28,209 bases of DNA from a virus. The DNA lies in the IMG/VR virus record IMGVR_UViG_3300047461_000017, positions 1 through 28,209 of that record. One strand, given 5' to 3'. Position numbers and translations under genes: made by a program. Below are positions 12,065 through 27,743 of the stretch, one piece after another; the stretch's first letter is position 1; every line of letters starts with the position of its first letter. The notes beneath the pieces are model-generated. The model was not told the DNA's origin. It saw only the letters and a list, made by a program, of their open reading frames with translations, and did not search any database.

Positions 12065-12691
12065 ATGGATCTTTGGAAAAATTATAAAGCAACTGTTGCT
12101 AAGATTTTTCCAGATATAGAATTTGTTAAGCGACATGCTGAATGGACTAATAAGAAAGGTGTAAACCTAACTGCTGATTTGTACTCAGGTGAACATCTAA
12201 TTAAGTCAAGACAAGTTGAAATCTGGGATGATAAATCTTGCAGCATTCATAACAATATAATATACCCTAAGACAGGATCTAATCTACCCTGTTTTGGTAT
12301 GGATCTCATGGGAATGAGTGATAAACGAGTTGTTATTGTGTTTGATTTCCAACATCCTGTAGAGAACTACTTGTTTTATACACCAGAGTTACCTAAAGTA
12401 GAGGGTACATATAGATTCTTTGAAGCGGGTAATCATTTCTCTGACAATCTTATTGTTAGATACTGCAAACCTGATGAGGTAGATGAATATCTACCACTGT
12501 TTACAAAGTATCTACAATTCTATAAAGATATGCTCAATGAGCATCAACCAACTGGTACTGATACTGATCAGTACAATGACTTTGATAAGTATATGATAAG
12601 ACTAGATCCAATCTCTGGATATCTCTCCAGTAGATTTGGTAAAGAACAATCAGAAATTTTAATCAAAGAATTCTTTTTCAGTTATGCCTAA
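12065..12691 (+). CDS. pebS: PebS-like ferredoxin-dependent bilin reductase (phycoerythrobilin synthase)
   Basis: 208 residues closely matching phage PebS as I recall it from P-SSM2: IIYPKTGSNLPCFGMDLM, FDFQHP, YRFFEAGNHFS and VRYCKPDEVDEYL. Two catalytic aspartates are expected at D105 and D206 in that protein; here D80 and D181 have the same 101-residue separation. The N-terminus is about 25 residues shorter than the P-SSM2 enzyme. PebS converts biliverdin IXalpha to phycoerythrobilin in one four-electron reaction using host ferredoxin. The gene starts 2 bases after nrdB and is followed in the same run by a PcyA-like gene. Heme oxygenase, the usual partner, is not in this window. Confidence 0.88.
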   Translation: MDLWKNYKATVAKIFPDIEFVKRHAEWTNKKGVNLTADLYSGEHLIKSRQVEIWDDKSCSIHNNIIYPKTGSNLPCFGMDLMGMSDKRVVIVFDFQHPVENYLFYTPELPKVEGTYRFFEAGNHFSDNLIVRYCKPDEVDEYLPLFTKYLQFYKDMLNEHQPTGTDTDQYNDFDKYMIRLDPISGYLSSRFGKEQSEILIKEFFFSYA

Positions 12692-15151: not shown

Positions 15152-15330
15152 CAGAAGCATTAGAAATTACAAAAGAAGAATTTGATACTAACAAAGATGA
15201 TTACCTTGATCGTGTAGAGAAAGGAGAGATTATTATTGTTAGACATCCTGATGGACGAGCAGTTCTTGCTATTCCAGAACAGTGGGATGAAGACTTAATA
15301 AATTTATGGAACCATGATGACGGAGCATGA
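15148..15330 (+). CDS. Phd/YefM-like antitoxin-type protein
   Basis: 60 residues resembling the N-terminal half of Phd/YefM antitoxins: ITKEEFDTNKDDYLDRVEKGEIIIVRH has the 'act on one strand, then KGE-xxxI-xR-x-G' pattern, followed by GRAVLAIPEQW. These proteins bind DNA and neutralise RelE/Doc-type toxins. No toxin gene is adjacent: upstream is glutaredoxin and downstream a membrane protein, both overlapping by 4 bases. The toxin-binding C-terminus is very short. It may be an orphan antitoxin acting on a host toxin, or a reused DNA-binding module. Confidence 0.6.
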   Translation: MTEALEITKEEFDTNKDDYLDRVEKGEIIIVRHPDGRAVLAIPEQWDEDLINLWNHDDGA

Positions 15331-16364
15331 TTAAAATTATAGAATCAATAGCACAGAAAGAACTCTACATGGGTTATATCTTTGGTATTATGATAATAGG
15401 CGGTTACATCAGACAGTATCATGTACTTGATGATGTATATTCATTAGCAAAAAGATATGTAAAAGATGCTCGCATCATGATTATTATTACATCATTGATA
15501 GGAGGAGTCTTACCAATACCTGGTAGAGTTGCATTGTCAGCACCACTATTGGATGCTATTGCACCACCTGATAAAAAGAAAAGAAGTGAGTTTGGTATTA
15601 TAGATTATCTTTCTACACATCATTACTATTGGTGGTCACCATTAGAGAAGACAATCATTCTTCCTATGGCAGCACTAGGTATAACTTATGGAGAGATGCT
15701 AAGTTATACTTTTCCTTTTCTACTCGTATGCATTGGATACACTTGGTGGTATATCTTTACCAAAGTAAATCCTAGAAGTGTCATACCTGACATGAGTAAC
15801 ATCAGAGATTTTGATTGGAAGAGAGCATTAAAAGGTTGGGCACCATTCATAGCAACAATATGGTTCTTGTTATGTGTGGGTAAAGCAGGAGCAATCCTAT
15901 TCTTTCCTTGGTTTGCTGCTATGTGTTGTTACTATGCATGGTTATGTAAGGATTGGAACTGGGGCAAGTATATTAATAAACAGTTTGCAATTATATCTAC
16001 AATAGTTTTAGCACTAGGTGGTGTGGTAGGATTGATTAAAGAACCAGTTATGGTATATCTTAAATCTGCAACACCAGAAATGATTATACCTGTAACTATT
16101 GTATCCATGGTAGCAGCATGGATCATGGGATCATCAGGTAAGTATGCAGGAATGACATCAGCACTTGTGTTGATCTTTGGTCCTCAATATCTTACATGGT
16201 TTCTTGCTACAGAATACTCAGGGTACTTATTATCTCCTGCACATAAATGTTTAATGATAGGTCAACAATATTTTGGTACACCAATTCGTAAATATTATGT
16301 TGTCTTAGGACGAATGTGTGCTATACTAATAGTATTAGCATTTATTGGCACCTTTTTACCATGA
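15327..16364 (+). CDS. polytopic membrane protein, DUF401-like
   Basis: 345 residues with about nine to ten hydrophobic segments, for example IFGIMIIGGYI, IMIIITSLIGGVLPIPG, IILPMAALGIT, PFLLVCIGYTWWYIF, FIATIWFLLCVG and IIPVTIVSMVAAWIMGSSG. The stretch SLIGGVLPIPGRVALSAPLLDAI and STHHYYWWSPLEKTI resembles DUF401, a family of bacterial and archaeal integral membrane proteins related to ion-transporter-superfamily folds. Function of the family is unknown. It is not a holin or other lysis protein by size and topology, so it probably acts in the host membrane as a transporter during infection. It is coupled by 4-base overlaps at both ends. Confidence 0.7.
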   Translation: MIKIIESIAQKELYMGYIFGIMIIGGYIRQYHVLDDVYSLAKRYVKDARIMIIITSLIGGVLPIPGRVALSAPLLDAIAPPDKKKRSEFGIIDYLSTHHYYWWSPLEKTIILPMAALGITYGEMLSYTFPFLLVCIGYTWWYIFTKVNPRSVIPDMSNIRDFDWKRALKGWAPFIATIWFLLCVGKAGAILFFPWFAAMCCYYAWLCKDWNWGKYINKQFAIISTIVLALGGVVGLIKEPVMVYLKSATPEMIIPVTIVSMVAAWIMGSSGKYAGMTSALVLIFGPQYLTWFLATEYSGYLLSPAHKCLMIGQQYFGTPIRKYYVVLGRMCAILIVLAFIGTFLP

Positions 16365-17200: not shown

Positions 17201-17212
17201 ATTGTGAATGTG

Positions 17213-17665
17213 ATGGACATAGACGAGATACAAGCACATAAGTATCCTTTCGCACAGGACATAAATCCAGATCTTCATAGAGTCATTTGTGAGAATAGTG
17301 TTACCGAAGATAAGGGAGCATTGATGACTCAGTGGAATTGTTTTGATGTAGAAGAGTTTAATGTTATCGCAGACTATGCGAAGAGTTTAATTGATAGACC
17401 TACTAAATTGGTAGATCTATGGGGTCAAGTGTATCAGTATGGACACTATCAGAGTTATCATAATCATATTCATAACGATTGGGCATTCGTATACTACGTG
17501 AATACACCATATGGATCTTCACCTATTGTATTCAGAACAAGTAACAAAAGAATTAAACCTATAACTGGGATGTTGATATTATTTCCTGGTTATATGGATC
17601 ATTATGTACCTCCTAATAAGGGAGAAGGTAGAAGTATCGTAGCGGGAAATTTAGTATACACATAA
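17213..17665 (+). CDS. 2-oxoglutarate/Fe(II)-dependent oxygenase
   Basis: 150 residues from the ATG at 17213; in-frame GTG codons at 17204 and 17210 are alternatives, and no clear ribosome site is seen for any. The iron and 2-oxoglutarate site is visible: H87-x-D89 in IHNDW, distal H130 (YMDHY) and R140 ten residues later. The surrounding YYVNTPYG strand and LILFPGYMDHYVPP turn are typical of small phage and bacterial 2OG oxygenases. Cyanophages often carry several; targets are unknown but protein or nucleic-acid hydroxylation is usual for the family. It follows the hairpin RNA and terminator and precedes the fibre region, with a late promoter at its stop. Confidence 0.85.
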   Translation: MDIDEIQAHKYPFAQDINPDLHRVICENSVTEDKGALMTQWNCFDVEEFNVIADYAKSLIDRPTKLVDLWGQVYQYGHYQSYHNHIHNDWAFVYYVNTPYGSSPIVFRTSNKRIKPITGMLILFPGYMDHYVPPNKGEGRSIVAGNLVYT

Positions 17666-17705: not shown

Positions 17706-19850
17706 ATGTCAAAAATTCTTGCAAATGAAATTGCTAATTACGGTGATGACTCACCGATAGATCTGAAGGAGGGTCTGAATATCCCTGCTGGAAAACCAAT
17801 ACAGACAGCAGGATCGTCTGGTACTACAGGACAAGTCCTGTCTACTACAGGTACTACAGTGCAATGGGTAACACCATTTAGTGGAAGTTATAATGACTTA
17901 TCTAATAGACCAACTATTCCTGCAGCACAGGTAAACTCTGATTGGAATGCTTCGAGTGGTGCTGCTGTAATCTTAAACAAACCAGTAGTTCCTCCTCAAT
18001 CAAGTGTCACTACAGCATCTGTAGGAACTGCTGCTCTATCATACAACAGTGGTAATGGAGAGTTTACATTCACTCCTCCAGATCTTTCATCATACGCTAC
18101 AGAAACATACGTAACTACTAGAGGATACTTAACATCATATACAGAAACTGATCCTGTATTCTCTGCATCTGCTGCATCTAATGTAACTACTGCAAAAATT
18201 TCTAACTGGGATACATCATACAGTTGGGGTAATCATGCTTCTGTAGGATACTTAACTATGGAGTCTGATACTCTACAGACAGTTGTTAGTAGAGGTAATA
18301 CAAGTACAAGTCCAGCATACTTTACAGCAAAATTACAATATAGTAATGCGTTTGTAGCAGCAGATATTACTTCATCTCTTGCTACAACTTATGATGGTTT
18401 CTTTTTAAAGAATACTACTGATGGTAATGCATACTATTCACACAATACTGCATGGAAAAAATTATTAAATGAAGATTCAATCCTTGATAATCTATCTGAT
18501 GTAGATCTATCTGTTGCACCTACAAATGGACAGGTTCTTAAATGGGATTCTGGTACATCAAGATGGAAAGCAGCAAATGATTTAACAGGTGGTGGTGGAG
18601 GAGGTCTTTCACTATCAGATCTTTCTGTTCAATCATCAACAGCAGCAGGAGGAGGTACTCTTGTATACAATAATGGTAGTGGTGTATTTACATATACTCC
18701 ACCAGATCTTAGTAGTTACATAACATCACTAGGAGATGCTATTCGTGATGCTGATTTCACAACCAGTGGTTTGATGAAGAGATCTAGTGCTGGAGTTTAT
18801 ACATCAACTACAGATAATAGTTCTAACTGGGACTCAGCATTTGGATGGGGTAACCATGCATCACAAGGATATCTAACACAACTTCCTGTTCATGGACTAG
18901 GAGTTCATACTGGTGTAACTCTTACTAATGAAACAGCAGGAGACTTGTTACAATATAGTGGTACACAATGGGTTAACTGGACACCAAACTATCTTACATC
19001 AGAAACAGATACACTACAATCTGTAATTGATAGAGGTAATACTGTTACAGGGAAAGATATAAATTTTGGAGAATATGCAGCAAATGCTCCAAAGATTACA
19101 TATGATGATTCTGACCATTTACTTTGGTTTAAAAAACAAACTGCTGGTGGTGCTTCTGCTAAAATCTGGTTAGGGAGTGGAGTAAGTTTTGATAATCTTG
19201 AACTTAAACAAACCTATACGAACGGTGGTCAATCAGAAATTACTGCATATAATTCAGACTTATTTTTATCAACTCAATCTACTGGTAAAAATATTAAGAT
19301 ACAAAGTGGCAACGATATCTATATTAGTAACGGTGGTTATGATGCTATTAAAGTTCTAGAAAATGGTGTTAACAATGGTGCTGCTTTAAGTGTTGAACTT
19401 CATTGGGGAACAGGAGCAGGAAGTAAAAAATTAGAAACAACTACCAATGGAGTTACCGTATCAGGAGCGTTGACTGCTGGTGGTTTGACCTATCCAACAG
19501 TTAATGGTACAAATGGTCAGGTATTGACGAGTGATGGAGCTGGTAACGTAGCATGGGGAGTTGGCGGTGGTGGAGGTGCTAGTGTAACTATAAGTGACAC
19601 ACCTCCAGCAGCATCTGCTGGTGACCTATGGTGGGAAAGTGACAGTGGACGTCTAAAAATTTACTATCAAGATGTTGATAGTTCACAGTGGGTTGATGTA
19701 GCACCACCACTTGCACCAGCGTTATCCTCAAACGCCCCTGCTACTGCTAGTTCTACTGGTACTGCGGGTGATATTAGATATGATTCTGGTTATGTATACA
19801 TTGCTGTTGCAACTAATACTTGGAAAAGAGCAGCACTAACAACTTGGTAA
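17706..19850 (+). CDS. tail fibre-like virion protein with internal repeats
   Basis: 714 residues, rich in Ser, Thr, Gly and Asn and without catalytic motifs. Repeats: a unit ending FTFTPPDLSSY near residue 129 recurs as FTYTPPDLSSY near 338; NWDTSYSWGNHASVGYLT (about 174-191) recurs as NWDSAFGWGNHASQGYLT (about 376-393); each is followed by a SxTDTLQSVxxRGNT-type segment. This is the beta-rich repetitive architecture of phage fibres. The C-terminal 120 residues (SDTPPAASAGDLWWESDSG) look like a small globular domain of fibre tips. A late promoter precedes it. It shares modules with the next gene. Host-receptor contact is inferred from the architecture and position. Confidence 0.75.
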   Translation: MSKILANEIANYGDDSPIDLKEGLNIPAGKPIQTAGSSGTTGQVLSTTGTTVQWVTPFSGSYNDLSNRPTIPAAQVNSDWNASSGAAVILNKPVVPPQSSVTTASVGTAALSYNSGNGEFTFTPPDLSSYATETYVTTRGYLTSYTETDPVFSASAASNVTTAKISNWDTSYSWGNHASVGYLTMESDTLQTVVSRGNTSTSPAYFTAKLQYSNAFVAADITSSLATTYDGFFLKNTTDGNAYYSHNTAWKKLLNEDSILDNLSDVDLSVAPTNGQVLKWDSGTSRWKAANDLTGGGGGGLSLSDLSVQSSTAAGGGTLVYNNGSGVFTYTPPDLSSYITSLGDAIRDADFTTSGLMKRSSAGVYTSTTDNSSNWDSAFGWGNHASQGYLTQLPVHGLGVHTGVTLTNETAGDLLQYSGTQWVNWTPNYLTSETDTLQSVIDRGNTVTGKDINFGEYAANAPKITYDDSDHLLWFKKQTAGGASAKIWLGSGVSFDNLELKQTYTNGGQSEITAYNSDLFLSTQSTGKNIKIQSGNDIYISNGGYDAIKVLENGVNNGAALSVELHWGTGAGSKKLETTTNGVTVSGALTAGGLTYPTVNGTNGQVLTSDGAGNVAWGVGGGGGASVTISDTPPAASAGDLWWESDSGRLKIYYQDVDSSQWVDVAPPLAPALSSNAPATASSTGTAGDIRYDSGYVYIAVATNTWKRAALTTW
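19464..19559 (+). repeat. fibre repeat copy 1
   Basis: Ungapped match to 20452-20547, with the first 20 bases identical. It encodes GALTAGGLTYPTVNGTNGQ and then VLTSDGAGNVAW; the other copy has the same frame and pattern. It marks sequence sharing between adjacent fibre genes. Confidence 0.7.
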
Positions 19851-19858
19851 AATAAATA
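19851..19858 (+). promoter_or_regulatory. late promoter box AATAAATA
   Basis: Starts immediately after the stop of the first fibre gene and 23 bases before the ATG at 19882. Fits NATAAATA. Confidence 0.65.
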
Positions 19859-19881: not shown

Positions 19882-20925
19882 ATGGCAATTAATTTTCCCG
19901 CAACGGGAGGGCAAGCAACTGACGGAACTTTTACATACACTGTAGCAGGGATAACATACGCATGGAATGGATCATCGTGGGCAGCTGCAGGAGCTGGTGC
20001 GAGTGCTACTAATAGATCATTGTTTAGTGTCACTACTAACTCTTCTTCTGGTGGTGGAGCATTAAGTTATGATCAGAACAGTGGAGGATTTACATACACA
20101 CCTCCAGATTTATCTGCGTTTATTACAGGAGAATCAGATACACTGGCAACAGTAACTGGAAGAGGTAACACAACAACTCAAACAATTGAAACTACTCTTG
20201 GTAGTTTTAAATGTCAGATTGGTAATGGTAATCAAGGATTTTATCTTTATAATGGTGCTTCAACACATGCATCTTTTCATTGGAGTAGTTCTGCAAGTGG
20301 AAATTATTTTAGAGGTGATGCTGGTGGTAATCATCCATTCATTATGCAGGACTTTTCAAGTGTTAGTATAAATCCTGGCACTTCTGGTGTTAATTTAAGT
20401 TACGGTGGAAGTTATAAATTTTCCACTACTAATACTGGTGTAACAATTACGGGAGCGTTGACTGCTGGTGGCAATACTTATCCAACAACCAACGGGACTA
20501 GTGGACAGGTCTTGACTACTGATGGTGCAGGATCTGTAACATGGGAAACTGCTGCAGGATCAAGAACTACTGCAGTCGTAACAGTTAACATTGCAAACGA
20601 AGCTGTATCTAACACATCATTTACAACTCCCAAAACATATGCTCTTCTAAAAGTATCAACATCTCATGCTGCATGGGTAACATTATACAGTGATACTGGT
20701 AGTAGAACTGCTGATGCATCAAGAGGAATAAATGTAGATCCTTTACCAGGTTCTGGTGTTCTATCTGAAGTAATTACTACTGGTAACCAAATACAATTAA
20801 TTACACCTGGCACAATATGTTTTAACTCTGCTGGTACAGGAACCACATACGCAAAGATAGTTAATAAATCAGGATCAACAGCGAACATAACAGTAACACT
20901 TACATACGTTGTATTGGAGAGTTAA
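19882..20925 (+). CDS. short tail fibre-like virion protein, paralogous module set
   Basis: 347 residues. It starts with a small domain (MAINFPATGGQATDGTFTY through about 45) containing the WNGSSW element common in phage fibre proteins. Next comes a unit ending FTYTPPDLSAF, followed by GESDTLATVTGRGNT, both matching repeats of the preceding protein. A GALTAGGNTYP segment is shared with it almost base for base at its start. The C-terminal 120 residues, from about residue 230, form a predicted beta sandwich (TVNIANEAVSNTSF to ANITVTLTYVVLES) not seen in its neighbour. Late-promoted, with SD GGAG at 19867-19870. Likely an exchangeable fibre or adhesin. Confidence 0.75.
   Translation: MAINFPATGGQATDGTFTYTVAGITYAWNGSSWAAAGAGASATNRSLFSVTTNSSSGGGALSYDQNSGGFTYTPPDLSAFITGESDTLATVTGRGNTTTQTIETTLGSFKCQIGNGNQGFYLYNGASTHASFHWSSSASGNYFRGDAGGNHPFIMQDFSSVSINPGTSGVNLSYGGSYKFSTTNTGVTITGALTAGGNTYPTTNGTSGQVLTTDGAGSVTWETAAGSRTTAVVTVNIANEAVSNTSFTTPKTYALLKVSTSHAAWVTLYSDTGSRTADASRGINVDPLPGSGVLSEVITTGNQIQLITPGTICFNSAGTGTTYAKIVNKSGSTANITVTLTYVVLES
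20452..20547 (+). repeat. fibre repeat copy 2
   Basis: Partner of 19464-19559, offset 988 bases, same reading frame and no gaps. Confidence 0.7.
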
Positions 20926-20926
20926 T

Positions 20927-23900
20927 ATGTCAGAAAAAATCTATATTGTCACTCTTCATAATAGGGAAGACTTGGACGGATTTTATGATGATATGAAGGA
21001 CAATGGGTTTCGTTTAAATATGAAACGTCCTATCAGTAGGAACACACACTACTGGATGACAGATGAACAAGCAGAAGAATTAAAACAAGATCCTAGAGTA
21101 TGGGATGTAGACTTGCGTCCAGAAGATAGAGGAATATATCCTAAGAAATGTGCAACACCAACTGATAATCAAGTTCCTAGAACACTTGAGGGAAGTTTCT
21201 GGAAAGCAGGAGGCATTGATACTAACAATAGTTTTCCATGGGGTCTTTCACATACCATTGATTCTACAGGTACAGTTAGAGGTAAAGGACAGTTTGGATC
21301 AAGTGGAGGAAGTTATAATCAATATGTTACAACCATACCAGGTGATAATTATGAAAATGCATGGGGAGATGGTAGACACGTAGACATAGTTGTTTGTGAC
21401 GATCCTGTATCTGCTGACTGTGGTGATTGGAGTGGGTTTGCAGCAAACAGATTTGTTTCATATGATTGGTTCAACGAGTTGAATACTGAAGTGACATCTA
21501 TAGATGATGATGGTCAGACTCTACCTACTGGAGCTGTAACTTACTATAGTAATGCAACCAATCCTGAGTATCATGGAACTCACGTTGCTGGAACTTGTGC
21601 AGGAAATTATTATGGACTTGCAAACGAAGCAAACATATATGGATTACAAATTCTAGGAACGATGCCTTCTGGTCAGAGTTTACCTACACTATTATTATAT
21701 GATTACCTTAGAGCATTCCATAAAAAGAAACCTATCAATCCTGTAACTGGATATAAGAACCCTACAATATCAAATCATAGTTGGGGGTATAGTACAGAGA
21801 CATCTTTAGAATCAGAATTTCCTGCTGGTATTGCAATTGGAAATGTTGTAGAAGTAAATTATCAAGGTGTGCAATACAATTCTGGTAATCCTAATGCTGC
21901 TGGTTGGACAATGGCAGGATTAGAAACAGATTTTGGTATTGCTCCTAACAAATGGAGTATTCCTGTTACACTTACATCTGTCAATGCTGATGTAGAAGAT
22001 GCTATTGCAGATGGTATAGTTATTATTTGTGCTGCTGGTAATGATAATTTTCATGTAGTACCACAAGGTGATGCAAATTATAATAATTTTGTTATCTTCC
22101 AAGGATATAATAGTAACTCTCCAGTCTATTTTAATAGAGGTATGTCTCCTGCCAGTGCACCAAATGCAATTATGGTAGGATCATTGAATAGTGATGCTTC
22201 ATTCAAGAGGTCATCTTTTACAAACTTCGGTCCTAGAATAGATGTCTTTGCACCTGGCACTAATATATTATCTGCATGGGGAAATCCTGCTACTATTACA
22301 GGAGGTAATGCAGGAGCAGGATTCGCTGATACGAAATATGGTGGTAATAACTGGATGTATCCTATAAGTGGAACTAGTATGGCATCACCATTAATTGCTA
22401 GTGTTGCAGCAATGGTTGCTAGTGCTAGGAGGACAGATAGATTTAGTAATGATGATCTCCGTGCATACATGAATAACAATAGTGTCTTTGGTGACATGAC
22501 ATTTGATGTTGGTGGAGGAACATTTGCTGACAACTCATGTAGAAAAGATAGTCCTAACAAATATTTGGTAACAAAAAATCCTAGAAAACAGAATGGTAAT
22601 TTACAGAATAAAGTAGGAGATAGAAGAAGTGGTGCAGTATTTCCTAGACCTAAAAAATTACATGCTACTAATGGATTTCCTAGTGGTCTATTATCTACCT
22701 CATCACAATTATCAATACAAAAAGAATGGAAATCATATAATTCAACAGTAGGTCCTACAGGTTTTAAAGATCCTGCAACTGCTGGTTTATATAATTATCT
22801 TTCCGATCTATACATTCCTACTAATGAAGCAGGTCCTACAGGATACCCAGTAATGATTTGTTTACATGGTAATGGTGGTAATGGTAGTACTATCAATGAT
22901 CCAATCTATGCTACACTAGGAGATCATATTAGAGTAGGTCCTTATGGTTCTGGAAGCAGTTGGAATATAGTTGATGAAAGTAGCATCGCTCCTGACATAG
23001 AATATCTAAGAAATCTTATTAAGTTATTGAAGACATTTACAAATGTAGATAGCACAAGAATTAGAATCTCTGGTATATCTAATGGTGCAGCACTAGCATG
23101 CAGAGCGTTTGTTGAGATAGATGATCCTGCTGTTGATTTAATTGTTCCTATTGTATCTCAATTTCATACTAATGAGGTAAATAATTTTACACAGTTCTTT
23201 ATGCCAACAGATCATTTAGATACTAGTGGATCTGCTGGAAGTTATGGATACACTGTTCAGAAAGTTCCTGTTGCTGGTAGAAAAATATTGATGATGCAGA
23301 ATACTAATGATGGTGTCATACCTTATAATGGTGGTGCTGGTGTTGGTATTCAATTCATAGGTGCTAGACTATCCACATATCGTATGGCACAAGCTATGGG
23401 ATGGGCAGGAGGAGAACAGAATACTGGATTAACATTCCAAGGAGACGCAGCAACACAACTCTATCGTTATAATATTAATGGGAATGTAAATGAAGTTGTT
23501 CATTGTGCAAGTAATGGTGGACATGGTGTCAATGCAAAGATGATTGCTTTGTTTGAGGAATGGGTAGAGAGTGATGGTCAGACAATTACAGTTACATTAC
23601 CATCTAATACATATAATATAACTGTGACTGCAAACAGTAACGTTAACTATCAACTAAGTGGAAATGATAGGAATGGATTAGTAACTGGTAATGATCCTAC
23701 AGTTACTGTACAGGCAGGAGATACAATTAACTTTATTGTTTCAAATACATTTGGTCATCCATTCTATATTAAGACTGTTTATGTTGGTGGTTCTGGTAGT
23801 CAAGTATCAACAGGAACTGTAACTGGAACACAAGGAACACAGAGTGGAACTCTGTCTTGGAACACAACAGGAGTGTCATCAGGAACATATTATTATGTTT

Positions 23901-23950
23901 GTTCTCCACACGCATCTCTTGGTATGGGTGGATCAATCGTTATCACATAA
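20927..23950 (+). CDS. subtilisin-like protease + alpha/beta-hydrolase + plastocyanin-like domain fusion
   Basis: 1007 residues from the ATG at 20927 (GGAGA upstream at 20916), one base after the previous stop. Residues about 1-75 are a small N-terminal domain. A subtilase (S8) domain follows: D158 (IVVCDD), H216 (HGTHVAGT), oxyanion N372 (AAGNDN) and S484 (GTSMASP), so the triad is complete. Next is an esterase-like alpha/beta-hydrolase resembling PHB-depolymerase/LpqC proteins: oxyanion HG at 647, nucleophile S718 in GISNG, D795 and H866. The last 110 residues are a cupredoxin with type 1 copper ligands H944, C992, H995 and M1000, with the plastocyanin spacing C-x2-H-x4-M. No signal peptide is seen. 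Its place among fibre genes suggests a virion-borne enzyme degrading host surface material. The combination is unusual to me. Confidence 0.85.
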   Translation: MSEKIYIVTLHNREDLDGFYDDMKDNGFRLNMKRPISRNTHYWMTDEQAEELKQDPRVWDVDLRPEDRGIYPKKCATPTDNQVPRTLEGSFWKAGGIDTNNSFPWGLSHTIDSTGTVRGKGQFGSSGGSYNQYVTTIPGDNYENAWGDGRHVDIVVCDDPVSADCGDWSGFAANRFVSYDWFNELNTEVTSIDDDGQTLPTGAVTYYSNATNPEYHGTHVAGTCAGNYYGLANEANIYGLQILGTMPSGQSLPTLLLYDYLRAFHKKKPINPVTGYKNPTISNHSWGYSTETSLESEFPAGIAIGNVVEVNYQGVQYNSGNPNAAGWTMAGLETDFGIAPNKWSIPVTLTSVNADVEDAIADGIVIICAAGNDNFHVVPQGDANYNNFVIFQGYNSNSPVYFNRGMSPASAPNAIMVGSLNSDASFKRSSFTNFGPRIDVFAPGTNILSAWGNPATITGGNAGAGFADTKYGGNNWMYPISGTSMASPLIASVAAMVASARRTDRFSNDDLRAYMNNNSVFGDMTFDVGGGTFADNSCRKDSPNKYLVTKNPRKQNGNLQNKVGDRRSGAVFPRPKKLHATNGFPSGLLSTSSQLSIQKEWKSYNSTVGPTGFKDPATAGLYNYLSDLYIPTNEAGPTGYPVMICLHGNGGNGSTINDPIYATLGDHIRVGPYGSGSSWNIVDESSIAPDIEYLRNLIKLLKTFTNVDSTRIRISGISNGAALACRAFVEIDDPAVDLIVPIVSQFHTNEVNNFTQFFMPTDHLDTSGSAGSYGYTVQKVPVAGRKILMMQNTNDGVIPYNGGAGVGIQFIGARLSTYRMAQAMGWAGGEQNTGLTFQGDAATQLYRYNINGNVNEVVHCASNGGHGVNAKMIALFEEWVESDGQTITVTLPSNTYNITVTANSNVNYQLSGNDRNGLVTGNDPTVTVQAGDTINFIVSNTFGHPFYIKTVYVGGSGSQVSTGTVTGTQGTQSGTLSWNTTGVSSGTYYYVCSPHASLGMGGSIVIT

Positions 23951-23984: not shown

Positions 23985-26900
23985 ATGGCAGATCGTTTTC
24001 CGTTAATAGTAAATGCGGTTTCTCAAAAGATTGAGGAACTGATTTCTGGTGACAATTTAGAATTGTCTGGTAACAATATAGTCATAAGTGGTGACACAGG
24101 AGCAGGAAAATATCTTACCAGTAACGGTACGGTTGTTTCATGGGGAACACCTGGTGATGTGTATCTAACACAAAACCAAGTCTTAGAAAATAAAACTTTT
24201 ACTTCATGTGTAATTTCTGGATCTGCTAATACTCTCTCTAACATACCAAACGCTGCTCTTTCAAACTCCACAATACAAGTAAACGGTGCTGCTATTGCTC
24301 TAGGTGGATCTGTTACAACACCAAATGACAACACCACTTACGTTGTGAGTGCACAAGATGGTGTCAATAATAATACAAAAGTTATTAGACTAACTGCTGG
24401 TGGATCAGGACAAGGAGATGATGATGTCAGTATCGCTGTAGGTCCTCCTGCTGCTGTTCCTGCTGGATCTAATGCTCTTGCTCTAGCAATCAATAGAGTT
24501 GGTGAAGTCATTACAATATCTGGTACAGCACCTGATGCTGATACTATAACAACAGTGAAGTCTGGAACTGGTGGTACAGCACAGACTGGAGATATTACAA
24601 TTGCTGCAACTGGATCCTCTACAGTATCTCAGGACACAGCATCTAAAACAATTACGATCAACTCAACATATGTTGACACGATCACGAAGATAAGAGCAAC
24701 CACAGGACAAGTATTAAATCCTGGTAACTTTACATTCTTATCTGGTGGTGCTACTACTGTTGCTCAAGGTGTTGATGGTAATGGCGACTCAACAATTACA
24801 TATACATCTGTTGATACTATAACCAGATTGAAGGGAGGAGCAGCTGGATCACTTGTAACTGGTGATGTCGAGTTTACTGGTGGAGCAAACGTCACAGTAT
24901 CACAAGCGGGTAACACAATTAGTATTGCTAGTGTAGATACAAACACAGTAACTAGACTTTCATCTGGTGCTAACGTTGTTACTGCAGGAGACTTTAAGTT
25001 TGTAGGAACTGGTGCTACTAGCATTTCACAAGCAACTGCTGGTGGTGTAACAACATTCACAGTCACATCTGCTAACGATGACACTGGTGCAGCGTTGACA
25101 GCATCCGCTGGTATCTTATTATCAGGTACAGATTTCCAATTAAAAAATGCTGGTAACTTTAGTGGTAATCAATTATTAAAGTGGGACTCTGGTAACAGTC
25201 AGATAGGAAACAGTTTGATTTCTGATAACGGGTCTACTGTTACAGTTTCTGGTGACTTAGTTGTAGATGGCACTCAAACAATTTTAAATACTACTACTTT
25301 AATAGTAGAAGACAATAGTATAGAATTAAGAAAGGGAAATAATTTAGTTGGAAATGACGGCGGTGTACAGATAAACTTAGAAACAGATGGTAGTGGATCT
25401 GTCACAAAATATCAATCATTACAGTGGTTTAACTCTGGTGGATACTGGAGAGGATGGGACGGTTCTGTTGAAAGAAGGTTTGTTACAGAGGCAGAGACAC
25501 AGATTCTTACTAACAAAACTCTTACATCTCCAACACTTACCTCACCTAACATCGGTGCTGCTGTTGCGACATCAGTCAATGGTCTTATAGTTAGTACAAC
25601 TGCATCTGCAACACTAGACATCGCAACATCTAAAGTGTTGGATGTAAATGATTCTCTAACATTAACATCAGATAACCCTGCTGCAACAGTTGCTGTTAAC
25701 TTTAGAGTTGGTGGAGACGTAGCATATAGATCTGATACTCTTGCATCATTCTCATCTACCACATCTACACAGATGCGTGGTTTGATTACAGATACAACAG
25801 GATTAGATAAGTTAGTATTCCAGACCAACCCTACAATTTTAACTGGTATTACTACAACATCTGCAGGATTTAATTTAGTTAACACTGGTGCTACAAGTAT
25901 ATTGTTTGGTGGTGCTGCTGGAAGCATCGTCATGGGTGCTTCAACTGGTGATACAACTATCAACCATGACTTAATACTTAAAGAAGATCTCACTGTTGGT
26001 GTTGATACAAATGATAACGCTGTATTCAATGGTAATCTTAACATTGAAAATGCAGACCTTACAATACGTGGAACTTCTAGTGATCCAATGCAAATTGGTA
26101 GAGGTGGTGGTGCTGTAAATACAAACACTCGTGTGGGTACATCAGCACTTGCTGCAAACACTTCTGGATCTCAGAACACAGCATTTGGATACCAAGCATT
26201 GTTCACAAATAATATTGGTGCATCCAATACTGCAATTGGCCACAGGGTTTTGAGGGCAGCGGGTGTCGGAAATAATAATATTGGTATTGGTAAAGATGCA
26301 TTACTTGTTACACTTTCTGGTAGTAAGAACCTTGCGATTGGTAACAATGCAATGGAGACAAACTCGACGGGTAGTGGAAACGTCTGTATTGGACACTATG
26401 CTGGTTTTGATGTACAAGGTAATAACAACGTTCTTATAGGTCCTGCATACAATGAGACTTCTGCTGATGTAACATTTAGACCTCCTAATATTAGTGGAGA
26501 TAATCAACTTGTTATTGGTTCTGGTGGACAAGCATGGTTGCGTGGTGATTCTAGTTACAATATTAGTACTAGTCAAAATCTTACCGTAGATGGAGATACA
26601 CTTATCAAGGGTGATCTTACAGTTAATGGTACTACAACCACAATTAAATCTAATATTGTACAGATTACAGACAAGGCAATTGAACTTGCTGCTGTTGTAA
26701 GTACACAGTTTACATGTACTGCTGTATCTGGATCTGCAAATATCGTAGCGATTGCTCCTACACTAGGACTAATACCTGGCATGGAGATTACATCAAACAC
26801 TGCTGGTATTACAGTTCCTGCTGGAACAATCATTGTAAGTATCACAAACGACACAGCGGTATTGAGCAACAACGTAACAGGATCTGGTACACCTACATTC

Positions 26901-27743
26901 AGTGCGATAGGTCCTTCTGATACTGCTGCAGAAGACGGTGGTATTATTGTTAAGGGTACAAGTGATAAGACATTCCTATGGAGAGGAGTTGATGGTGGTG
27001 TAACATATAATAGTTGGACATCATCAGAACATATAGATCTTGCAAGTGGTAAGAACTATTATGTAAATGGTATTCTAATTGCCAGTGATACTAATAAAGT
27101 TATCGGACCTACAAATGGTGGTGGTCAAGGACAGATTGATTTAAGTGGTGCTGGTGTTGCATACACACTTGGTAGTGCAGTCACAGGATCATCATTAACA
27201 TCTGTCGGAACTCTTAGTGCATTGACTGTTAGTGATAATTTCAAAGTTAGACCAGGTAATACTTCAAACGCTACATGCTACATGGGAGTTGTAGGTAAAT
27301 CTAGTGTAAACTATGCTGGAGGTAATGCCGATACTGCCTGTTTAAGAATTGAAGACACTGGTTCTAATAATGGTTATTATCATGGATTGGAATTTAGAAC
27401 AAGACGTAGTGGTGATATTAGATTATATGCTCATGATCAAGGTGATAATTTAGCTGATTTTGTTGTTGCAGTTGATAATGGTAGTGTACTCGTAGAAAGA
27501 TTACGCATACAATCTGATGGTGACGTAGTACCTGGTTCAGATAACGCACAAGATCTTGGAGCATCTAACTTACGTTGGGCAAACGTCTACTCTGGTGACG
27601 TTCATCTAAACAACACAGGAATGGGTGGTAACGAGGTAGATGGAACTGAAGGAAACTGGACAATGCAAGAGGGTGCTGATGATCTATTCTTAATCAATAG
27701 AATCACTGGTAAGAAGTATAAGTTCAACTTAACTGAGGTGTAA
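23985..27743 (+). CDS. long tail fibre-like virion protein
   Basis: 1252 residues, the largest protein of the window, beta-rich. Residues about 170-400 hold tandem units of roughly 40-60 residues built on VDTITxL...GDxxFxGGAxxTVxQ-type strands. Residues about 425-520 carry a different segment (TTLIVEDNSIELRKG). Residues about 723-820 have seven-to-eight copies of an NTAIGxxAL-like motif spaced about 14-22 residues apart, the pattern of YadA/trimeric-adhesin head repeats and some phage fibres. A second IVEDNSIEL-like segment (IVQITDKAIELAAV) occurs near 888. The C-terminus (DLGASNLRWANVYSGDVHL and then NRITGKKYKFNL) resembles fibre ends in other marine phages. No chaperone or peptidase domain is obvious. 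Probably trimeric. Confidence 0.75.
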   Translation: MADRFPLIVNAVSQKIEELISGDNLELSGNNIVISGDTGAGKYLTSNGTVVSWGTPGDVYLTQNQVLENKTFTSCVISGSANTLSNIPNAALSNSTIQVNGAAIALGGSVTTPNDNTTYVVSAQDGVNNNTKVIRLTAGGSGQGDDDVSIAVGPPAAVPAGSNALALAINRVGEVITISGTAPDADTITTVKSGTGGTAQTGDITIAATGSSTVSQDTASKTITINSTYVDTITKIRATTGQVLNPGNFTFLSGGATTVAQGVDGNGDSTITYTSVDTITRLKGGAAGSLVTGDVEFTGGANVTVSQAGNTISIASVDTNTVTRLSSGANVVTAGDFKFVGTGATSISQATAGGVTTFTVTSANDDTGAALTASAGILLSGTDFQLKNAGNFSGNQLLKWDSGNSQIGNSLISDNGSTVTVSGDLVVDGTQTILNTTTLIVEDNSIELRKGNNLVGNDGGVQINLETDGSGSVTKYQSLQWFNSGGYWRGWDGSVERRFVTEAETQILTNKTLTSPTLTSPNIGAAVATSVNGLIVSTTASATLDIATSKVLDVNDSLTLTSDNPAATVAVNFRVGGDVAYRSDTLASFSSTTSTQMRGLITDTTGLDKLVFQTNPTILTGITTTSAGFNLVNTGATSILFGGAAGSIVMGASTGDTTINHDLILKEDLTVGVDTNDNAVFNGNLNIENADLTIRGTSSDPMQIGRGGGAVNTNTRVGTSALAANTSGSQNTAFGYQALFTNNIGASNTAIGHRVLRAAGVGNNNIGIGKDALLVTLSGSKNLAIGNNAMETNSTGSGNVCIGHYAGFDVQGNNNVLIGPAYNETSADVTFRPPNISGDNQLVIGSGGQAWLRGDSSYNISTSQNLTVDGDTLIKGDLTVNGTTTTIKSNIVQITDKAIELAAVVSTQFTCTAVSGSANIVAIAPTLGLIPGMEITSNTAGITVPAGTIIVSITNDTAVLSNNVTGSGTPTFSAIGPSDTAAEDGGIIVKGTSDKTFLWRGVDGGVTYNSWTSSEHIDLASGKNYYVNGILIASDTNKVIGPTNGGGQGQIDLSGAGVAYTLGSAVTGSSLTSVGTLSALTVSDNFKVRPGNTSNATCYMGVVGKSSVNYAGGNADTACLRIEDTGSNNGYYHGLEFRTRRSGDIRLYAHDQGDNLADFVVAVDNGSVLVERLRIQSDGDVVPGSDNAQDLGASNLRWANVYSGDVHLNNTGMGGNEVDGTEGNWTMQEGADDLFLINRITGKKYKFNLTEV

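Follow-up and report, generated by a model that had tools for sequence, protein, structure and literature searches.

Analysis of a 28,209-nt stretch of virus DNA (IMG/VR record IMGVR_UViG_3300047461_000017, positions 1 to 28,209; hereafter the window) revealed one open reading frame of 1007 amino acids that combines a propeptide-like domain, a subtilase, a putative esterase and a plastocyanin-type cupredoxin. The virus carrying it is a T4-like, Kyanoviridae-like phage of marine cyanobacteria. On balance, we favour the reading that this is a late-expressed protein of the fibre region that would act at the host surface; its virion location, activity and copper are inferred. The features referred to below are as follows.

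17706..19850, + strand: tail fibre gene (phrog_9729, E 1.4e-154)
19851..19858, + strand: late-promoter-like sequence AATAAATA, 31 nt ahead of the gene at 19882
19882..20925, + strand: small fibre-like upstream gene (phrog_9627, E 7.8e-77; tail fiber phrog_9729, E 8.1e-7)
20927..23950, + strand: protease-esterase-cupredoxin coding sequence, 1007 aa (profile searches and structure model)
20927..21124, + strand: inhibitor-I9-like propeptide, aa 1-66 (beta-alpha-beta-beta-alpha-beta in the 75-row model)
21179..22582, + strand: subtilase catalytic domain, aa 85-552 (PF00082 and fold match)
21398..21400, + strand: catalytic D158
21572..21574, + strand: catalytic H216
22376..22378, + strand: catalytic S484
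22697..23590, + strand: predicted alpha/beta-hydrolase esterase, aa 591-888 (phrog_2576, profile, triad)
23603..23947, + strand: plastocyanin-type cupredoxin, aa 893-1007 (PF00127, profile matches, fold match)
23756..23758, + strand: predicted copper ligand H944 (residue check and conservation)
23900..23926, + strand: predicted copper ligands C992, H995 and M1000 (C-x2-H-x4-M)
23985..27743, + strand: downstream virion structural protein gene (phrog_6002, E 0)

The reading frame opens with ATG at 20927, closes with a stop codon ending at 23950 and contains no internal stop. The stop codon of the upstream gene lies one base ahead of this ATG, and an alternative TTG start at 20909 would run into the end of that gene. 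The initial annotation had described three intact sites within the one frame, and all ten residues (D158, H216, S484, S718, D795, H866, H944, C992, H995 and M1000) were found at their numbers. Inspection of the N-terminal sequence itself revealed no signal-peptide-like stretch. As a whole, the protein gave a full-length match to the family phrog_9158 (E 3e-202). Profile searches identified subtilase, esterase-like and cupredoxin matches, in agreement with the domains first proposed, and the subtilase and cupredoxin folds were seen in structure models. Two models were used: the second, an AlphaFold2 model built on a 75-row alignment, had a mean pLDDT of 81.5, and the first, built on an 8-row alignment, was poor (mean pLDDT 32.6) and served for the two ends of the protein alone, where block pLDDT was 38-71 in the propeptide and 42-81 in the cupredoxin.

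The subtilase matched Pfam above threshold (Peptidase_S8, PF00082; E 1.7e-28, 100.2 bits against a curated cut-off of 21.8). Its part of the 75-row model superimposes on the proteinase-K-like chain 8c4z_B over 278 residues (Z 34.7, rmsd 2.4). The catalytic D, H and S occur in order and are conserved among the long relatives: aspartic acid in 84 of the 84 having a letter at that position, and histidine, serine and the oxyanion asparagine in 86/86 each. By profile, catalytic residues and fold the protein belongs to peptidase family S8, and a protease function is predicted. An I9 propeptide is common in this peptidase family, not universal. Inhibitor_I9 was matched by 10 of the 20 family members, at E 0.0014 in the best case; the window's own copy gave no match, and a propeptide profile found nothing convincing by sequence in the PDB. 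In the low-confidence 8-row model this region resembled a subtilisin propeptide (Z 7.9) and the N-terminal region of EpiP (Z 8.2).

The esterase domain matched phrog_2576 (E 1.1e-59). No Pfam family exceeded its cut-off there, BD-FAE reaching 14.2 bits against 26.8 (E 0.031) and AXE1 10.8 bits against 21. A profile built from five esterases matched the feruloyl esterase 9j07 (E 2.9e-5); a feruloyl-esterase-like substrate class is suggested by this single distant profile match. The triad S718/D795/H866, with its G-x-S-x-G nucleophile, is kept in 14 of 14 relatives. Confidence in the 75-row model is lowest for this domain (block pLDDT 47-88). On the subtilase tree the esterase was gained or lost five times, with starred branches forcing at least four of these changes. 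The same esterase, with an intact triad and 37-42% identity to that of the window, also occurs beside gp9/gp8 at the baseplate locus of S-ShM2, S-SSM4 and ACG-2014d; there it follows a YHYH domain (identified by Pfam in both proteins scanned) and, unlike the window protein, is accompanied by no subtilase or cupredoxin match. A search for a host source of the esterase found no match to its profile (A4) in 151 genomes from the genus group to which G002 belongs, a result that shows little as the search had no positive control.

The C-terminal domain was predicted at the outset to be a cupredoxin, and both profile and fold matches bear this out; a C-terminus of another fold was thereby ruled out. 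Copper-bind (PF00127) matched at 34.9 bits against a cut-off of 21.2 (E 2e-8), and a cupredoxin profile search matched amicyanin (E 3.5e-5) and plastocyanin. The C-terminus of the 8-row model matched rusticyanin over 101 residues (Z 10.1, rmsd 2.4), most other matches listed in that search being cupredoxins, and in the 75-row model block pLDDT was 85-94 here. Hence, the domain is a plastocyanin/azurin-type cupredoxin by sequence and model, with probable copper binding. Of the 105 unique domains that align in full, 100 keep the ligand set HCHM; another 22 unique matches, incompletely aligned at the four ligand columns and some of them also lacking ligands, were left out of this count. Among the five departures, three sister copies (L086, L087 and L092) have all four ligands replaced with the fold signature retained, one loses three and one loses a single ligand. 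Since these sisters lack the ligands and one host copy (L321) lacks the methionine, copper appears dispensable in some copies. The location of the cupredoxin varies among relatives, and in L017 it is nested within the C-terminal part of the subtilase.

Comparison with relatives revealed that this architecture is not confined to the window. The initial annotation knew of no phage protein with all three domains; one had already been deposited, from the isolate Synechococcus phage S-MbCM7 (ACG-2014h), as AHB80591.1 ('hypothetical protein') and UniProt V5URI3 ('Peptidase S8/S53 domain-containing protein'). It has the same domains in the same order and a similar gene neighbourhood, with 41% identity over 99%. 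Several IMG/VR lineages also carry all three domains. The window protein is therefore new in its recognition and not the first of its kind. S-MbCM7 differs in its copper loop (C-x2-H-x2-M against C-x2-H-x4-M), and its cupredoxin scores slightly under the PF00127 cut-off (19.4 against 21.2 bits). Architecture counts come from a capped sample, in which the top-ranking 80 relatives out of at least 551 were kept. Among the loci searched, 14 reading frames, that of S-MbCM7 included, have three domains, 17 have a subtilase match alone (some being cut by contig ends) and most lack the esterase. The family, phrog_9158, is recorded as T4-GC 292 in S-MbCM7 and S-SSM7 and has similar synteny in ACG-2014e and in S-RSM4, which carries the subtilase alone in contrast to the window's three domains. 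As some relatives lack one or the other, the esterase and the cupredoxin are not essential to the role of the subtilase.

For a virus fragment of metagenomic origin such as the window, an assembly chimera or frameshift artefact might be supposed. This explanation is almost certainly wrong, as the same architecture is found in an isolate and in several separate contigs, two of which differ from the window by 3 nt over 3021 nt, and purifying selection acts on every domain. Across seven pairs, omega was 0.28-0.48 for the subtilase, 0.16-0.30 for the esterase and 0.23-0.37 for the cupredoxin; one short linker comparison (25 codons) gave 1.14. Loss of the active sites in relatives was likewise ruled out by the residue counts given above.

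The placement of the gene among fibre genes, claimed from the window alone, was recovered as a recurrent setting, with fibre genes upstream and a structural gene downstream. Of the 87 loci, 62 have more than 600 nt of upstream sequence, and in 61 of these a fibre homologue sits no more than 1.5 kb away on that side. More than 600 nt of downstream sequence is available at 83; 52 of them have a structural or collar homologue in the next 1.5 kb, and none was found there in the other 31. In S-SSM7 the relative directly precedes gp9, and PF00082 is noted in its record. The late-promoter motif described for S-PM2 is NATAAATA (PMC2984593). In the window, seven of nine such sites on the + strand sit 30-45 nt before gene starts and none was found on the - strand. 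The site at 19851..19858 is the probable promoter of the gene pair 19882-23950, and these motifs suggest late-type control of a gene lying among fibre and structural genes. Synteny and the late-promoter-like sites point to packaging in the particle; synteny by itself is no proof.

Our analysis also showed that tail proteins of cyanophages commonly contain this cupredoxin module, gp9 and fibre proteins among them, a point that the initial annotation had not remarked. The baseplate wedge tail fibre connector, gp9, ends in a cupredoxin with copper ligands in all 77 complete proteins sampled (80 loci found with an N-terminal query, three cut by contig ends being excluded); this query returned close relatives alone (at least 70% identity). 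All four ligands are kept in 56/56 unique gp9 domains. A separate gp9 pattern search was biased toward C and H. In eight divergent gp9s the four ligands are among 17 invariant columns. Cyanophage gp9 thus shares the C-terminal cupredoxin and its four ligands with the window protein and has a T4 gp9/gp10-like N-terminal part where the latter has enzymes. No solved gp9 structure with a cupredoxin was found, the gp9 profile matching T4-type gp9/gp10 chains by the N-terminal part only.

Outside its own phage group, the window's cupredoxin is closest to a secreted, stand-alone protein of Prochlorococcus (59-67% identity along the full domain), compared with at most 50% identity to isolate phages. 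Unlike the window protein, this host protein of about 134 aa is hydrophobic at its N-terminus and is not fused to an enzyme. The two share the rare copper loop C-x2-H-x4-M, present in 53 of 57 host loci, the others being cut, broken or without methionine (L321, a second copy in MIT 9201). The host scan relied on short peptide patterns derived from the window's cupredoxin and would miss hosts having other copper loops. Plastocyanin was rejected as host source: the second match in four of these host genomes (frames of 119-121 aa, presumably plastocyanin) has a far lower identity of 37-38%. In the tree the hosts form a single clade (support 98) beside the window group; the clade uniting the two also takes in one stray row on a long branch (L088, 657-748) and excludes S-MbCM7. 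A constrained-tree test, with two bacterial rows and five long-branch phage domains dropped and 39 hosts thinned to 14, gave a p-AU of 0.0146, which is optimistic because the tested groups were picked after the first tree was seen. One constrained tree beat the free tree, hence the quick search had missed the best tree. Two bacterial sequences from outside the cyanobacteria (L341 and L342) also have a C-x2-H-x4-M-like loop, which favours host-to-phage transfer without proving it. Overall, the cupredoxin of most relatives sampled appears to be a phage-lineage module related to that of gp9, and that of the window lineage appears to be of the kind found in the secreted Prochlorococcus protein.

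Other roles have to be weighed against action at the host surface. The cupredoxin may be a stable beta-sandwich serving for adhesion or as a spacer, with metal binding incidental or absent. Its occurrence at several places, even nested in a subtilase, and the loss of ligands from some copies are consistent with this possible, if doubtful, explanation; the near-complete retention of HCHM, in gp9 above all, is not, and four of the five departures lose three or four ligands, a pattern suggesting that the site is lost whole. It is unlikely that the subtilase is an assembly protease that cuts fibre or structural proteins of the phage itself inside the cell at maturation, the other domains being structural. 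The recurrent position among long fibre genes, the subtilase-only relatives in the same place and the timed activation that an I9-like propeptide could provide would suit such a protease, which leaves unexplained the repeated gain or loss of an esterase, the intact esterase triads and the host-like cupredoxin. Released enzymes are known from other phages, and a soluble protein freed at lysis to digest debris or nearby surfaces would stay outside the particle; we consider this just as improbable as the assembly protease, given the probable late promoter common to this gene and the fibre gene, the recurrent fibre synteny and the location of cupredoxin relatives in gp9 and fibre proteins.

Under the favoured reading, of action at the host surface, the protein would be made late in infection in the host cytoplasm, without a signal peptide. 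The I9-like domain would chaperone folding and then be removed by the subtilase, and the mature protein would join the adsorption apparatus. There the subtilase may trim a protein on the host surface and the esterase may strip ester groups off a surface glycan, with the cupredoxin as a compact docking tip; in the window lineage a host-like tip would suit binding to a host partner of the Prochlorococcus secreted protein. The most likely role of copper is to stabilise the tip and give it its shape; a role in electron transfer is less likely, since no redox partner is fused to the cupredoxin or seen beside it.

A further-reaching proposal, which we put forward as rather unlikely, is that cyanophage particles are copper-loaded. 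Type-1 sites on gp9 and on fibre-region enzymes would then form a lineage-wide attachment device, and the window lineage would have taken its host's secreted blue-copper protein as a tip, docking by mimicry of an extracytoplasmic Prochlorococcus protein. This would be the copper counterpart of the Ferrojan or Trojan Horse hypothesis, in which iron sites at HxH motifs of phage tail fibres place metal in a tail protein as a possible attachment aid (PMC11705849); the window protein differs in that a cupredoxin fold holds its predicted type-1 copper site. The literature searched gave no sign of a metal site at the cyanophage baseplate-fibre joint.

Because the esterase has been repeatedly gained or lost, this putative three-module surface enzyme is a good test case for the modular evolution of adsorption machinery. 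If copper is bound, many T4-like cyanophages would have a metal site at the baseplate-fibre joint. This, if true, would bear on host recognition, on how copper is budgeted in infected picocyanobacteria and on the reuse of host secreted proteins by phages.

Checking of the reading frame and of the individual residues confirmed that the ORF at positions 20927-23950 is real and complete, in agreement with the initial annotation. Its 1007 amino acids comprise the following domains, all encoded on the + strand.

Amino acids 1-66: I9-like N-terminal domain
About amino acids 85-552: subtilase (D158/H216/S484)
About amino acids 591-888: esterase (S718/D795/H866)
About amino acids 893-1007: cupredoxin (H944/C992/H995/M1000)

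The source of the window, a virus record of 28.2 kb, is a T4-like cyanophage, and Prochlorococcus is inferred to be its likely host. Matched parts of the nrdA-to-DUF401 stretch are 72-73% identical to the best-listed Synechococcus phages (e.g. S-CAM4 and ACG-2014j), and the GC content per kilobase is 32-40%. Genes for a ferredoxin-dependent bilin reductase (12065-12691; Pfam Fe_bilin_red, 4.1e-15), a DUF401 membrane protein (15327-16364; Pfam, 1.7e-11) and a 2OG-Fe(II) oxygenase (17204-17665, immediately 5' of the fibre genes) were also found. A DUF401 homologue was found upstream of the subtilase at 6 of 87 loci, many of which are short.

The three-domain protein had been thought to be without a known phage counterpart; one was already deposited, from Synechococcus phage S-MbCM7 (ACG-2014h; AHB80591.1/V5URI3), and is not recognised as three-domain in its examined records. 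A total of 106 phage records were matched by tblastn. In two of these, both S-MbCM7/ACG-2014h, the match at a single locus spanned 80% or more of the protein, and all three domains lie in one 974-aa ORF. The neighbourhood of this gene is similar to those of its relatives in ACG-2014e (subtilase and cupredoxin) and S-RSM4 (subtilase alone). Cyanophage S8 peptidases are present in database annotation and in print, one being described as common to P-HM1 and P-HM2 (PMC3037559).

Architectures were counted in 112 sequence sources including the window, minus 9 repeats or parts; the sources include the best 80 of at least 551 relatives from an alignment-based scan of IMG/VR. Analysis of this set revealed 43 subtilase-cupredoxin ORFs, 17 with subtilase alone, 16 with subtilase and two to five cupredoxin matches, 14 with subtilase, esterase and cupredoxin, three with esterase and no subtilase, and a few other types. 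The 14 three-domain ORFs include the window and two contigs encoding the same protein. At one locus (L017) the cupredoxin is nested within the C-terminal part of the subtilase. On a FastTree phylogeny built from 83 subtilase domains, presence of an esterase (labelled in 12 rows) required five changes, at least four of them forced by starred branches, and the esterase has therefore been repeatedly gained or lost. An esterase of the window type also occurs behind a YHYH domain, adjoining gp9/gp8 (L006:4392-6113, L007:4110-5882 and L008:4104-5867); the S-ShM2 record calls the YHYH-esterase gene gp7 baseplate wedge initiator, a role to which none of its domains points.

Among 86 long subtilase domains, H, N and S were each kept in all 86, and D in all 84 with a letter at that column. 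The esterase S, D and H were kept in 14 of 14 unique domains. For the cupredoxin, 105 of 127 unique matches had letters at all four ligand columns, and H-C-H-M was found in 100 of these; the departures were T-S-D-M, H-C-N-M, and E-S-N-A (two) and E-S-S-A (one) in the sister proteins L086, L087 and L092 (ORF from 5992), in which all four copper ligands are thus replaced and the cupredoxin fold signature is retained. When members of the window's own group were compared in seven pairs, omega stayed below 0.5 for all three domains; it exceeded 1 only in a 25-codon linker in one pair.

Across 87 loci, a homologue of the window fibre genes was found within 1.5 kb upstream at 61 of the 62 with enough sequence, and a homologue of the window's structural or collar gene within 1.5 kb downstream at 52 of 83. 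The cyanophage late-promoter motif NATAAATA, described for S-PM2 (PMC2984593), occurs in the window at nine sites on the + strand and none on the - strand. Seven of the nine are 30-45 nt 5' of one of 31 start codons; positions 10-60 nt 5' of a start codon make up 5.6% of the window. None of 21 arrangements of the motif's seven letters equalled its count of start-proximal sites, and the next best (4 of 5 sites) is the same word in shifted form. One of the motif sites lies 5' of the fibre gene at 19882; a single base separates the stop codon of that gene from the ATG of the ORF, and the two genes are therefore probably co-transcribed late.

The ACG-2014e cupredoxin as query matched 166 of 50,697 phage records; in 154 of them the match spanned 80% or more of the domain, and 39 of the 60 matches listed carry the gene name baseplate wedge tail fibre connector (gp9). 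Pfam scanning of two gp9s identified an N-terminal T4_gp9_10_N domain in that of S-SSM5 and no match in the short one of S-SSM7. With a query from the gp9 N-terminal part only, the cupredoxin formed the C-terminal end in 77 of 77 complete gp9s. The ligands were kept in 56 of 56 unique gp9 cupredoxin domains and fall within 17 columns invariant among eight divergent gp9s. Viral models of a gp9 and of a proximal tail fibre also match the predicted fold. Cupredoxins occur further in a collagen-repeat protein of P-SSM2 and in giant proteins of S-BM3 and P-HM1; outside cyanophages, YHYH and cupredoxin share one protein in Actinomycetia phage DSL-LC01 (L026:3044-4414). Listings from an open-access library, which lacks most subscription papers, showed no publication describing a cupredoxin within a fibre or baseplate protein of a phage. 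The plastocyanin passages of PMC2984593 concern petE, and the nearest published idea found concerns tail fibres that carry iron in HxH motifs (PMC11705849).

A genome scan with the window cupredoxin gave 73 loci, of which 56 are titled Prochlorococcus and one Synechococcaceae; the remaining 16 are chiefly from Bacteroidetes, and their matches are short or weak. Where intact, the Prochlorococcus ORF encodes a stand-alone protein of some 134 residues whose N-terminus is hydrophobic; its neighbours vary among the three loci read. This secreted protein was present at E 1e-20 or better in 45 of 200 genomes of the Prochlorococcus genus group of host genome G002 and in 2 of 201 drawn family-wide, many being incomplete single-cell or metagenome assemblies. 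Prochlorococcus MIT 9201 has two copies, the second (L321:4929-5339) with Thr at the Met ligand position; the MIT 9201 genome also holds a weak cupredoxin match (31% identity) in a 2970-aa open frame (G001:C1:5292-5609). The C-x2-H-x4-M loop is shared by all six unique domains of the window group and 53 of 57 cyanobacterial loci. Of the 94 remaining unique phage cupredoxins with all ligands, 93 have C-x2-H-x2-M and one has x3 spacing. Identity of the window cupredoxin to isolate phages is at most 50%. The window group and the hosts lie on one side of a branch with SH-aLRT 94 in a first tree, with one stray long-branch row inside, and 97.5 in a second. Tying the window group to cupredoxins taken from four further three-domain proteins was rejected (p-AU 0.0146, groups chosen after the first tree). 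From the shared loop, the identities and the trees, the tip therefore seems to have passed either from host to phage or from phage to host.

The domains, their intact sites, selection, synteny and cupredoxin relationships are established, and the best reading of the protein is a late, fibre-associated surface enzyme. Less likely alternatives are that it serves maturation of the phage's own fibres, that it is a soluble lysis product, or that its cupredoxin is purely structural. As a surface enzyme, the protein would process its own I9-like propeptide and the mature form would be packaged in the phage particle; the cupredoxin tip would be loaded with copper and may dock the protein, with the subtilase and esterase cutting surface protein and esters.
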